Shown here in pieces: positions 1-5,021 of a stretch of DNA of 64,000 bases. The notes under the pieces were generated by a model that was not told where the DNA came from, did no database searches, and saw nothing but the letters and a program-made list of their open reading frames with translations. The stretch covers positions 620,001 to 684,000 of the forward strand of contig NZ_JAFMZP010000002.1 in the NCBI RefSeq assembly GCF_024436435.1. The letters are read 5' to 3'. Made by a program: the position numbers and the translations under genes. Each line of letters opens with the position of its first letter. Within the stretch, counting starts at the first letter, position 1. The DNA is from Desertivirga xinjiangensis. Lineage in GTDB: Bacteria > Bacteroidota > Bacteroidia > Sphingobacteriales > Sphingobacteriaceae.

Positions 1-204
1 TAACTGCCTAACATTCCAGCTATCAGGCCGGTAGGTTTTTGTCAAATCCTCAAAAGATAGGTTCGTGGCCACAGTTCTGTACTCTTTCGGTGCTTCCCTA
101 ATTGTTTCGAGCATTGAAGCCATTTCTTCACGGCTGTAGCTGTCTTTTTTTACGAACGGTCCAATTGGGAACTTGAGTACATTAAGATCAAAAGTATTTT
201 CCAT
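1..204 (-). CDS. DinB/YfiT-like (BstA-type) metal-dependent transferase, N-terminal part only
   Basis: The reading frame starts at an ATG (202-204, reverse) and runs off the left edge, so only the first 68 residues are visible. The N-terminus carries a YPIGPF-like stretch (FPIGPFVKKD), an acidic helix, and a YRPDSWNVRQL segment. This is the pattern that opens YfiT/BstA proteins of the DinB superfamily, which bind a divalent metal with three histidines and include bacillithiol transferases. The metal-binding histidines lie beyond the edge and cannot be checked. It diverges from the TetR/AarF remnant. Confidence 0.7.
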   Translation of the reverse strand, partial: MENTFDLNVLKFPIGPFVKKDSYSREEMASMLETIREAPKEYRTVATNLSFEDLTKTYRPDSWNVRQL

Positions 205-403
205 TTAATAAGTTTCCTGTGATGCAAGTTCTCATAAAGAAGTCTTAATAGCAAGAAACGTATGGGATAATAAACATGATTCATGTCATTTTTTTCATAC
301 GACAATGATCTGGTTGTGATCCTTTTCTAGATAGAGCTTTAAATAACGGCGGTGTTATACGTGTTTCTATATATAAATCAAGAACATTTATAATGAGCTT
401 TCA

Positions 404-443
404 CCTTTTAGCTTTTTGTCTGATATTTAAAAAAGCTAAAAGG
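404..443. promoter_or_regulatory. Perfect 14-bp inverted repeat, possible operator
   Basis: Arms at 404-417 and 430-443 are perfect complements (CCTTTTAGCTTTTT and its reverse complement) around a 12-base loop. The element ends 31 bases before the ATG of the truncated TetR gene. There is no T-run after it on the plus strand, so a terminator is unlikely. Inference: it may be the operator of the TetR-type regulator whose gene follows. Confidence 0.4.
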
Positions 444-474
444 ATTATTCATTTCAATCACAAACGTTAATACA

Positions 475-738
475 ATGATGGAAAAAAAGGAGCAACTTCA
501 GCAGGCTTATATTAACCACGTGCTGCTTAATGATGAGCAACCTAGAAGCGTTTTTGTTTTCGCTAAGGAGAATGAACTTGCCGAAGAAGAGTTTTATAAG
601 TATTTCGGTTCGTTTGACAGTATAGAACAAAGTATCTGGAAAGTTTTGCTGGATACAGCGATCACTGAAGTGAAGGCCCAGGAGATCTGGCCGCAATACT
701 CATCCCGTGAAAAAGTACTTTCTTTATTACTTTTATAA
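475..738 (+). pseudogene. TetR-family regulator, N-terminal remnant
   Basis: The 87-residue frame resembles the DNA-binding half of a TetR-type regulator: a helix-turn-helix region with a YKYFGSFDSIEQSIW segment, then a KAQEIWPQYSSREKVLS helix. A complete TetR protein is about 190-220 residues, so the ligand-binding half is missing. After REKVLS the frame reads a few leucines and stops. The DNA then continues directly, in another frame, into the C-terminal half of an ABC1 kinase. This looks like a deletion joining two neighbouring genes. The remnant might still bind DNA but lacks the dimerisation domain. The family call is moderate because TetR sequences vary widely. Confidence 0.6.
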
Positions 739-1243
739 TTTCCAGGAACACGAACTCAGGGCAGTGCATGCGGATCCCCATCCTGGAAATTTCCTCATCA
801 CTGAAGAAGGGAAACTGGGTATCATTGATTTTGGATGCATCAAAGTGCTGCCTGACGATTTTTACTATCCATTCTTCTCCCTTGCGGCAAAAGAGGCTCT
901 AAATGACGAAGCTGAAACTCTGCAGGCATTCAGGGATCTGGAAATGATCCTCCCTGGCGACAGCCCTCAGCAGATAGAGTTCTATTTTAGGAACTTCTCT
1001 GAGATGATCAATCTGTTCACTAAACCGTATACTAACAGCATATTCGATTTCAGTAAGAAGGAGTTCTTTGAGCAGATCTATGCTTATGGCGAAAAGATGG
1101 CGAAGATGCCTGAATTCAAACAAGCAAGAGGCGTTAAACACTTCATTTATATAAATCGTACCAACTTCGGGCTGTATAGTATACTTCATGAATTAAATGC
1201 GACAGTTAGAACCGATACGTTTCCACCGCATTTTAAAAAATAA
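718..1243 (+). pseudogene. AarF/ABC1/UbiB-family kinase, C-terminal remnant
   Basis: The frame holds the catalytic end of an ABC1 (UbiB/AarF) atypical kinase: HADPHPGNF near the beginning, the DFGC metal-binding motif about 20 residues later, then the helical C-terminal tail. Full-length members have about 430-560 residues; only about 170 remain. The N-terminal KxGQ helix and the ATP-binding lysine are absent, so kinase activity is unlikely. The first residues overlap the end of the TetR remnant in a different frame, and the ATG at 707 sits within TetR-derived sequence. I read the pair as one degraded locus left by an internal deletion. Confidence 0.75.
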
Positions 1244-1424
1244 ATGGTACACTTACCATCCTAATATTACATTAATAATAGAATTGAGCAATACTATCCG
1301 GGTAAGCTATGTCGTTATATGTTCAATAATATTCGAATATCCATTTCCACTCCTTTTTTTAAAAAGCTTGTGATCTGTGTTTTGAAGATTTAAACAGCTT
1401 TTTATTTCTTATTAATTTCTATCT

Positions 1425-2159
1425 ATGTTAATTATTTTAAGCTTTTTTGTAGCGCATTGGTTCCTGTCGTTGTTTTTTCAAACCTTTTTTCAGCACCGCT
1501 ATGCGTCTCACAGGATGTTCACTACAAGTAAAACCTGGGAGCGTATCTTTTATATACTGGCTTATGTTTGTGAAGGCGCCTCCTTCTTAAATCCTCGTGC
1601 GTACGCTATCATGCATAGGGAGCATCACGCGTTTAGTGATACTGAGAAAGATCCGCATTCTCCTCATTTTTTCACTGATGTGTTTCAAATGATGGTGGCA
1701 ACTGTTAAAACATTCCGTGATCACGTCAAAAACGTGTCGAACCCAGAACTAAGGTTCAAAGGAAATTATCCCGAATGGCCACTTGTTGATCGAATAGGTT
1801 CGTCCATATTATCGAGGCTTCTTTTTGGCGCCGCCTATACCTGTTTTTATATCGCTTTTGCCACCCATTGGTGGCTGTTTCTACTACTACCTATTCATTT
1901 TTTAATGGGGCCAATTCATGGTGCTATTGTAAATTGGTGCGGTCACAAATACGGTTACACTAATTATGATAATAATGACAAGTCGAAAAATACTACACCA
2001 TTCGACTTTCTGATGCTTGGAGAACTATTTCAGAATAACCACCATAAGCACCCAAACAGTGCTAACTTCGGTAAAAGATGGTTTGAGATAGACCCGGTTT
2101 ATCCGGTGATGAAGTTGATGCACATGCTGAAGATAATCAAACTCCGCAAGAGTGTGTAG
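1425..2159 (+). CDS. Acyl-CoA/fatty acid desaturase (membrane di-iron)
   Basis: This 244-residue integral membrane protein has the histidine boxes of stearoyl-CoA-type desaturases: HRYASH (residues 24-29), HREHH (64-68) and NNHHKH (about 204-209), with an extra WCGHK before the third box. These histidines bind the two irons that insert a double bond into acyl chains. Hydrophobic stretches lie at both ends and between the boxes. It is shorter than eukaryotic delta-9 desaturases, as is usual for compact bacterial members. It follows the TetR/AarF remnant by 180 bases, and the TetR regulator may once have controlled membrane lipid genes here (inference). Substrate and regiospecificity cannot be told from sequence. 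Confidence 0.88.
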   Translation: MLIILSFFVAHWFLSLFFQTFFQHRYASHRMFTTSKTWERIFYILAYVCEGASFLNPRAYAIMHREHHAFSDTEKDPHSPHFFTDVFQMMVATVKTFRDHVKNVSNPELRFKGNYPEWPLVDRIGSSILSRLLFGAAYTCFYIAFATHWWLFLLLPIHFLMGPIHGAIVNWCGHKYGYTNYDNNDKSKNTTPFDFLMLGELFQNNHHKHPNSANFGKRWFEIDPVYPVMKLMHMLKIIKLRKSV

Positions 2160-2249
2160 CTTAAGAGCTCTATGAGAAAGGCTTTTTACAAAAAGCGAAC
2201 AACAGCAGGATAGGGGCAACAATGCATAAAGTGCTCTGTTCCATTCTGT

Positions 2250-4253
2250 ATGAAAAAAAATCTACTTGTTTTGGGACTATTGTTTTCAAGACTTCTGAGT
2301 TTTGGACAATGGAGCAATGATGCGGGAGTAAATACTCCCATAGTGGTTAAAGATGAAAGTCAGGTTGTCTACAACGCGATCAACGATGGCACAGGAGGTT
2401 TGATCCTCGCATGGGGAGATGACACCGGATCTGACGGTCAGGCGGTATTCAGAAACAAGCTTCTTTTGCAGAGATTGTCAGCTGCAGGCTTTAAACAGTG
2501 GGGCGAAGAAGGAAAAAGGGTTTCTGAATCCTTAAATCATACCGTTTACGGTTTTATGGTTCCTGATGGTACCGGAGGCTGTTTCGTGGCCTGGGTTGAA
2601 AATATTAATGACGATGAAAGTACTTCAGATATCTACGCTCAGCGAATAGATGCTCATGGGAACAGGCTTTGGGGAAATAACGGTGTTGTAGTATGCAACA
2701 GTCCCGAGGAGCAGTATGCCAGCAATATGGTTCCTGATGGTGCTGGTGGTGTTGTTATTTCATGGACAGACAACCGTAGCGAAGGCGAGCTCTCCCGTCA
2801 TGTATATGCTCAAAGGTTTAATGGAGGCGGAGCGGCTCAATGGGCCACAAACGGTGTACCGGTGTCTGACAATGAGGGAGATATTTTAGGAGCCCTGGTT
2901 TATCCAGACGGAAGCGGCGGGTTTACGGTACTTTGGAACGAAGAGACTGTCGCGGACGACGTATATGGGTCGAGAACATACTGGCAAAAGCTAAATCTCA
3001 ACGGCAGCAGAAAGTCTGCAACAACAAATACCCTGATCTTTGATTTCGCCCCGTCTGCTAATTTTGTGGATCTCGCCGGTTTTGTCCCTGACGGAGCGGG
3101 TGGGTTCTATGTAGGAATTACAACTGATGATGATGTAACAGCTAAATTGTACCTGCAGCATGTGCTGAACAATGGTACAAAGACTTTTAACAATACGCCG
3201 CTGGGTATTGAGGTTGATCCCTCTATTGGCCGACCATCAGAGGTTCCAGGGGCTAGTTATCTTGATTACCAGGTGAATATGGAAAGTGACAATGCCGGAG
3301 GTGTTGTCATGGCCTGGACAGGTGTGCGTTCGGCGGAGGGTGGATATTTTGCACAACGGATAAATGCTTCCGGAACAAAGTTTTGGGGTGCTAACGGAGT
3401 AACCGTTGTTCCGGAATTTATTCAATATTTAGGAGCAATGGGCCTCGTCAGGAATCAGGGGGGCGATTTTGTTTTCCTGATTTCAAAAGGAACCACATTT
3501 GGCAATTCACTTTTGTATGCTCAAAAGATCAGTGCTGCCGGAGCAGTTCAGTATGCTCCGGGCGGTAATATTGTGTCGAGTGTGCAAAGTCCGAAATTTG
3601 GTTTTATGATACCATTTGCCGATAATGTTGCTGTAATTTGGAGCGATCTGAGGACCTTTGACGGGTATGATATTTATGCCCAGAATGTTCCTCTTAATGG
3701 GGTTTTACCCGTGCGTTTTGCGGGTTTTAACGTGAGGTACGAAAATCAGCAAAGCAAGCTGAGCTGGTCGACTGCTTCAGAGCTGAATAACGACCGCTTT
3801 GAGATCGAACGCAGTAACGATGGAAGGTTATTTAGTGCTATCGGTTCTGTTAAAGGATCGGGCACGGCAACGCAAACCAGCCATTATTCCTATTCTGATC
3901 CGGAAGCTTTTTCGGAGAGCGGGTATTTATACTATCGTATTAAACAAGTGGATTTTAATGGAGATTTTAATTACTCAGAGGTTCAGCCGGTAAAAGTTCC
4001 GCTACTTCAGGCATCAGAAATAACGTATTATCCAAATCCTGTTACAGATAAGCTGATGGTCTCCTTTAAAAAGCCTTCTGATCAGGTTCAATATTCGTTA
4101 ACCGATATTTCCGGGCGATTGGTTTTTAAGCGTTCAGACCAATATACCGCCGGTCCGCTGGAGGTTAATTTGACTACTGTGCCTTCAGGCGTATATATCC
4201 TCAGCGTCAAATCGGGGAACAAGGTATATAATGAAAGGATAGTTAAGAAGTAG
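2250..4253 (+). CDS. T9SS type A-sorted secreted protein with propeller-like repeats
   Basis: The 667-residue protein starts with a signal peptide (cleavage probably after FGQ, residue 20). It ends in a type A sorting domain: YYPNPVTDKL, then a DISGRLV segment and a C-terminal SGVYILSVKSGNKVYNERIVKK. This predicts secretion by the type IX system and surface anchoring or release. The first 480 residues carry about eight repeats of the form DGxGGxxxxW (such as VPDGTGGCFVAW and VPDGAGGVVISW) spaced some 50-60 residues apart, often paired with AQR...G...W. That suggests a beta-propeller or similar repeat fold. No catalytic motif was recognised, so adhesion or binding is only a guess. Confidence 0.85.
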   Translation: MKKNLLVLGLLFSRLLSFGQWSNDAGVNTPIVVKDESQVVYNAINDGTGGLILAWGDDTGSDGQAVFRNKLLLQRLSAAGFKQWGEEGKRVSESLNHTVYGFMVPDGTGGCFVAWVENINDDESTSDIYAQRIDAHGNRLWGNNGVVVCNSPEEQYASNMVPDGAGGVVISWTDNRSEGELSRHVYAQRFNGGGAAQWATNGVPVSDNEGDILGALVYPDGSGGFTVLWNEETVADDVYGSRTYWQKLNLNGSRKSATTNTLIFDFAPSANFVDLAGFVPDGAGGFYVGITTDDDVTAKLYLQHVLNNGTKTFNNTPLGIEVDPSIGRPSEVPGASYLDYQVNMESDNAGGVVMAWTGVRSAEGGYFAQRINASGTKFWGANGVTVVPEFIQYLGAMGLVRNQGGDFVFLISKGTTFGNSLLYAQKISAAGAVQYAPGGNIVSSVQSPKFGFMIPFADNVAVIWSDLRTFDGYDIYAQNVPLNGVLPVRFAGFNVRYENQQSKLSWSTASELNNDRFEIERSNDGRLFSAIGSVKGSGTATQTSHYSYSDPEAFSESGYLYYRIKQVDFNGDFNYSEVQPVKVPLLQASEITYYPNPVTDKLMVSFKKPSDQVQYSLTDISGRLVFKRSDQYTAGPLEVNLTTVPSGVYILSVKSGNKVYNERIVKK

Positions 4254-4292
4254 GAACTTTTTTGAGCGGGATGCTGCTGCAAGATGCAAAAA

Positions 4293-4361
4293 AGCACACG
4301 CGGCACGAGTGCGCCAGCAAAGGTTTTTAAAACTTTTCAGCGCACGCGTGCCGCGTGTGCT
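4293..4361. repeat. Palindromic repeat family A, copy 1 (paired arms)
   Basis: Two 22-base arms (4293-4314 and 4340-4361) are reverse complements with one mismatch, separated by 25 bases. Each arm contains the near-palindromic core GGCACGCGTGC. The element lies between convergent genes (T9SS protein and yceI) and is followed by AAAAAAGCTTTTTT (4362-4375). It could act as a bidirectional terminator, but the same arms recur at four other intergenic sites. Confidence 0.8.
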
Positions 4362-4391
4362 AAAAAAGCTTTTTTGGGAACAAAAAATTTC

Positions 4392-4973
4392 TTAGTTCTT
4401 TATAAACTCAGCGTTTGCGTTCAAAGTGATCTCATCACTTAATACAGCAGCAGGAAATTTCGCGCCGATTCCGAAGTCAGAACGTTTGATAGTTCCTGTA
4501 ATTTTGAAACCTGCAATAGTCTTTTTGCTCATTGGATTAACGCCAGTTTTTGCGACAGCGTTTAATTCCACTGGTTTGGTCACACCATGAAGTGTTAAGT
4601 TACCTTTCACTTTATAGTTATTGCCGCTAAGTTTCTTGAAAGACGTGCTTTTGAAAGTCAGAGTAGGGAACTTAGACGTTTCAAGGAAATCCGCGTTTCT
4701 GATATGCTCGTCACGTTTGTCATTATCAGTATCTACAGAGTTCGCATCTGCAGTAAGCTCTACCACAGCGTCAGAAAAATCTGCTTTAGTTGAGGTGATC
4801 TTTGATTCGAATGATCTGAATGAACCTTCTACATCAGATACCAATAAGTGAGTGATACTGAAGCCAAGTTTCGCGTGCGACTTATCTAAACTCCATGTAG
4901 AAGCTTCAATAGCTGTAAACGAAAAAAGAATTGCTGAAATAGCTGATAGTGAAAGTAATGTAAGTTTTCTCAT
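4392..4973 (-). CDS. YceI-family periplasmic protein
   Basis: This protein of about 193 residues has a signal peptide (MRKLTLLSLSAISAILFSFT) and a YceI lipocalin-like body. It shows WSLDKSHAKLGFSITHL at the mature N-terminus, a RDEHIRNADFLE motif and a KPVELNA strand, ending in SDEITLNANAEF. YceI proteins form a beta-barrel that binds isoprenoid or fatty acyl ligands, and exact roles vary. I start at the ATG at 4971-4973, which gives a clean signal peptide; a longer frame would need a TTG at 4988. It diverges from an HxlR regulator with a palindromic operator between, so HxlR probably controls it. Confidence 0.9.
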   Translation of the reverse strand: MRKLTLLSLSAISAILFSFTAIEASTWSLDKSHAKLGFSITHLLVSDVEGSFRSFESKITSTKADFSDAVVELTADANSVDTDNDKRDEHIRNADFLETSKFPTLTFKSTSFKKLSGNNYKVKGNLTLHGVTKPVELNAVAKTGVNPMSKKTIAGFKITGTIKRSDFGIGAKFPAAVLSDEITLNANAEFIKN

Positions 4974-5021
4974 CTTGTTTTTATTCAATTAATTGTTTTG
5001 TTTTGTTGCTAAAATGTGTCG

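Follow-up and report, generated by a model that had tools for sequence, protein, structure and literature searches.

The window analysed here is a stretch of 64,000 nucleotides from the Desertivirga xinjiangensis genome (positions 620001-684000), the assembly of which comprises 5.51 Mb in 26 contigs, with a completeness of 99.98%. At the locus of interest, two open frames on the plus strand, 475-738 (87 aa) and 707-1243 (178 aa), overlap and are one base apart in phase, and the first ends at a TAA stop codon (736-738). Just as the original prediction had it, the N-terminal part of a TetR regulator is joined here to the C-terminal part of an ABC1/UbiB kinase in another frame. The features of the locus are as follows:

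404-417, no strand assigned: left arm of a 14-base perfect inverted repeat with a 12-base spacer, not conserved in the congeners
430-443, no strand assigned: right arm of the same repeat, likewise not conserved in the congeners
478-726, plus strand: 5' stub of a TetR-family regulator gene, residues 1-83 of about 215, based on the alignment of relatives
727-730, plus strand: joint of the deletion, at which 4 bases separate the TetR-homologous codons from the AarF-homologous ones, the exact point being ambiguous by a few bases
731-1243, plus strand: 3' stub of an AarF/ABC1/UbiB-family kinase gene, from residue 270 of 441 (numbering of the Desertivirga arenae protein, genome G001) to the stop codon, with the motifs HADPHPGN and DFG

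Pfam reported no TetR domain above the cut-off for the 87-aa stub, and a TetR_N match was listed neither for the stub nor for the intact regulator of G001. The stub was assigned to the TetR family because of its intact homologues in relatives, and not by Pfam. Its identity to the 215-aa proteins of the two congeners (G001 and G002) is 69-70% over their first 84 residues, and its residues 1-83 contain the N-terminal DNA-binding region homologous to that of intact family members. The rest of the intact G001 regulator matches the C-terminal ligand/dimer domain TetR_C_23 (PF17931, E = 2.7e-41), a segment that is missing from the window.

The kinase stub corresponds to the last ~170 residues of a 441-aa kinase. 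In the 178-aa frame, the Pfam ABC1 profile (PF03109) is matched only at model positions 179-239 of 244 (E = 2.6e-9), versus positions 3-241 in the intact G001 kinase (E = 4.5e-49), thus approximately three quarters (~75%) of the domain profile is gone. The catalytic loop HADPHPGN and the IDFG motif are kept, as in 80 of 80 relatives; these are the best 80 of 345 confirmed relatives from a scan of named genomes, taken as the locus set (L054-L133). Because a C-lobe remains without the nucleotide-binding N-lobe and about three quarters of the ABC1 domain has disappeared, the kinase allele would most likely be null. Human COQ8A/ADCK3 is the structural reference of the AarF/ABC1/UbiB atypical kinase family (PF03109). 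An N-terminal extension bearing a KxGQ motif has been described for UbiB-family proteins, as has an Ala-rich loop, and both fold on the active site (PMC4718504). D. xinjiangensis has lost this loop and the N-terminal KxGQ-type motif to the deletion. In the relatives, the KxGQ signature reads KVAQ (48 loci) or KIAQ (31 loci) in 79 of the 80 kinase loci (best 80 of 345), the last one giving no pattern match; the signature motif of UbiB therefore has a Gly-to-Ala change throughout this Sphingobacteriales clade (L054-L133, best 80 of 345).

The comparison within the genus included three genomes, D. xinjiangensis (window) and the congeners G001 (locus L054) and G002 (locus L055). In both congeners, a 215-aa and a 441-aa gene are adjacent on the same strand, 6 and 5 bases apart, respectively. 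A search of 40 other genomes with the 178-aa frame gave close matches (E < 1e-40) in 14, where the open frames measure 434-524 aa, and a further 6 matches that were weak; with the 87-aa frame, 13 of the 40 matched, in open frames of 220-240 aa. Both genes were full length in 77 of the 80 named loci (best 80 of 345). The non-standard loci in this set were L096 and L133, which are cut by a contig end, and L094, in which the regulator is intact and the kinase aligns only from residue 40. The intergenic gap in the 77 intact loci (again best 80 of 345) was at most 100 bases in 55, 101-250 bases in 5, and more than 250 bases in 17. The TetR and AarF genes of Hufsiella arboris and two Mucilaginibacter are separated by an inserted gene that carries an FDMDGT motif and that we take to be HAD-phosphatase-like (L056:3542-4210, L084:3539-4201, L111:3354-4028). 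The possibility that the ancestor already had a chimera-like form, and that the locus is a conserved fused or overlapping gene, is negligible, since both congeners have separate full-length genes and a check of the relatives for a conserved chimera found the chimeric arrangement in none of the 80 named loci (best 80 of 345).

In the window, regulator-like codons run up to 724-726 (residue 83), and kinase-like codons start at 731-733 (residue 270, G001 numbering). Two Phe-codon landmarks are separated by 1,208 bases in G001, 1,207 bases in G002, and 4 bases in the window, therefore 1,204 (G001) or 1,203 (G002) bases are missing, in line with the ~1.2 kb that had been anticipated. The alignment with relatives placed the breakpoints within the predicted interval (720-745), with the joint at 727-730, and confirmed that the two genes are intact neighbours in the relatives. 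We are confident that a co-oriented pair of a TetR_C_23-type regulator and an AarF/ABC1 kinase has collapsed by a single deletion of ~1.2 kb. The ancestral order would have been regulator then kinase on the same strand, and one deletion, running from regulator codon 84 to kinase codon 269, would have taken the ligand/dimer domain of the regulator together with the N-terminal extension, the Ala-rich loop and most of the N-lobe of the kinase, and left the remaining kinase end out of frame. Both genes are presumably non-functional.

The segments at the two breakpoints are Phe/Tyr-rich, as had been noticed originally, and read FYSFFE in the regulator (FFSFFE in G002) and FYNFQE in the kinase. When placed in register, 11 of 18 bases are identical in both congeners, a level that only 0.21% (G001) and 0.20% (G002) of all possible 18-base pairings of the two genes reach. 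The suggestion that short common homology was involved agrees with this value of ~0.2%, but not with the position of the joint, which lies out of register with the Phe/Tyr similarity and includes 4 unassigned bases. The longest word that occurs exactly near both ends has 5 bases in either congener and 7 in G021. As far as the breakpoint sequences go, it is plausible that short homology at the ends aided the deletion, and the Phe/Tyr-coding similarity may have helped a misalignment by slippage or template switching, but the out-of-register joint and an exact word of only 5 bases in each congener (7 in G021) make the case for this mechanism weak.

Neither the missing DNA nor a second copy of either gene was found on any of the 26 contigs (99.98% complete). 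A search of the D. xinjiangensis genome with the full G001 kinase matched only residues 266-439, at the stub, and the full G001 regulator matched only residues 1-89, with a stop inside. The PF03109 profile likewise gave a single match, the 60-position stub, so that this stub is the only ABC1-type match in the genome. For comparison, an ABC1 match at a threshold of E 0.001 was present in 323 of 399 drawn genomes of the family, D. xinjiangensis included. These searches bear on the only serious rival explanation, an assembly error, according to which both genes exist in the organism and 1.2 kb was skipped during assembly. The genome is indeed a draft in 26 contigs, but the joint lies well inside an 812-kb contig, the missing coding sequence was found on no other contig despite the high completeness, and the ends have only 5-7 exact bases in common in relatives, which is probably too little for an assembler to collapse. 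We therefore regard such an error as unlikely, with a probability that is quite small. The deletion allele is known from one assembly of the species.

With regard to the state of the stubs, all 80 relatives, or all but one, agree in 79 of the 170 kinase columns (best 80 of 345; window left out). The window departs in 2 of these 79, namely columns 2 and 3 at the joint, and in 0 of the 77 beyond it; in the same test, G001 departs in 1 of 80 columns and G002 in 0 of 79. In the regulator stub no aligned conserved column is broken, and its 2 departures, out of 22 columns, come from the gap at the joint. Dating the deletion by synonymous rates was dropped because synonymous differences are saturated between these species, therefore only relative rates and invariant columns were used. 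Amino-acid changes in the kinase stub numbered 11 in the window versus 8 in G001 with G002 as outgroup, and 12 versus 6 with H. ginkgonis (locus L069) as outgroup; for the regulator stub the counts were 10 versus 9 and 8 versus 10, respectively. The kinase counts lean slightly to faster change, although by our own arithmetic they are too few for significance, whereas those of the regulator do not. Neither conserved columns nor relative-rate counts thus reveal detectable decay in either stub, and the deletion is probably recent, as was originally supposed, since recency is the simplest explanation for stubs that are intact and undecayed.

The same data could be read as a sign that the stubs still serve as short functional proteins, namely a DNA-binding one of 87 aa and/or a 178-aa kinase C-lobe fragment starting at GTG 707 or GTG 764. 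Both frames are open and unspoiled, and beyond the joint none of the 77 near-invariant columns is broken, but a recent deletion would look the same, no such fragment occurs among the 80 relatives (best 80 of 345), and ~75% of the ABC1 profile is gone, so that this reading is improbable, to about the same degree as an assembly error. Slightly more doubtful still is that the kinase C-lobe or the free DNA-binding stub of the regulator is made and took on a new role after the rest of the operon was lost. We thus keep to a probably recent deletion that would have disabled both genes.

The 14-base inverted repeat upstream of the regulator (404-417/430-443) is real and perfect, it occurs only once in the genome, and it folds well as RNA (z = -4.3). 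The scan listed no terminator or promoter at this position, and Rfam gave no match in 1-5000 of the window. The repeat had been interpreted as a leftover operator, and this part is not supported, because the regions preceding the regulator in G001, G002, and H. ginkgonis contained no exact arm of at least 9 bases. In the 250 bases before the regulator of 79 sequences (window and 78 relatives), exact arms of at least 9 bases were present in 21 and of at least 12 bases in 5, with differing sequences. A common upstream motif, GATATTT, was not convincing (7 of 79, versus a shuffle mean of 1.6). Among 25 listed of the 79 sequences, a palindrome-like TTCAAATATTTTGAAA lies ~85-105 bases before the regulator in the Pedobacter-type loci L063, L064, L065, L066, L073, and L075. 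Judging from its sequence and position, this is a candidate operator of these loci; it was not seen in the D. xinjiangensis window.

Four genomes (G001, G002, G021, and H. ginkgonis) have a third gene directly after the kinase, and the G001 copy is oxygenase-like (MPAB/rubber-oxygenase-like), with a match to MPAB_Lcp_cat (PF09995, E = 4.7e-10). Of the 80 named loci (best 80 of 345; some right flanks are short), 3 have this third gene next to the pair, and a third operon gene of the PF09995 type was observed in few lineages (L038:4991-6001, minus strand; L054, L055, and L069; L043). The D. xinjiangensis genome gave no significant match to the third gene (best E = 0.19). A relic at 1244-1424, after the stub, was considered and rejected, its score being equal to that of shuffles (89 of 200 reached the same). 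Since both congeners have one, the oxygenase-like gene was probably also lost in D. xinjiangensis. Both the flanking desaturase of the window and the gene on the minus strand at its start were matched in G001, G002, G003, and G021 (4 of 4 tested), at locations away from the pair.

D. xinjiangensis can apparently live without this regulator-kinase pair, which nearly all of the relatives examined have in intact form. If reads confirm the deletion, the strain would be a natural knock-out of a UbiB-family kinase, for which we know of no established role in this phylum. The membrane/quinone-related role suggested originally is a putative one, taken from the family name. Literature searches found no papers on Desertivirga, none on AarF with TetR in Pedobacter, and none joining KxGQ, UbiB, and ABC1; for AarF/UbiB with TetR in Bacteroidetes the sole match was unrelated by title, and no bacterial microhomology-deletion pseudogene was among the matches listed.

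Compared to known systems, the regulator stub resembles the intact TetR_C_23 regulators of the congeners' operon in its first 84 residues, at the identity given above, and differs from a TetR-family regulator with TetR_C_23 in that this whole domain is absent. The kinase stub shares with the AarF/ABC1/UbiB family the catalytic loop HADPHPGN and the DFG motif, and is 83% identical to the C-terminal part of the D. arenae protein; unlike intact kinases of this family, it lacks residues 1-269 (G001 numbering), which correspond to the ABC1 positions before 179. Intact orthologues in relatives, truncation in this lineage, and no intact copy elsewhere in the genome together characterize a deletion pseudogene. 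The scar is a case of ordinary gene loss, a clean example of routine genome erosion, and it is generally like other bacterial deletion pseudogenes in that two adjacent genes were cut by one internal deletion and their remnants are still recognisable, the only difference being its unusually precise ends, which could be defined from the relatives.
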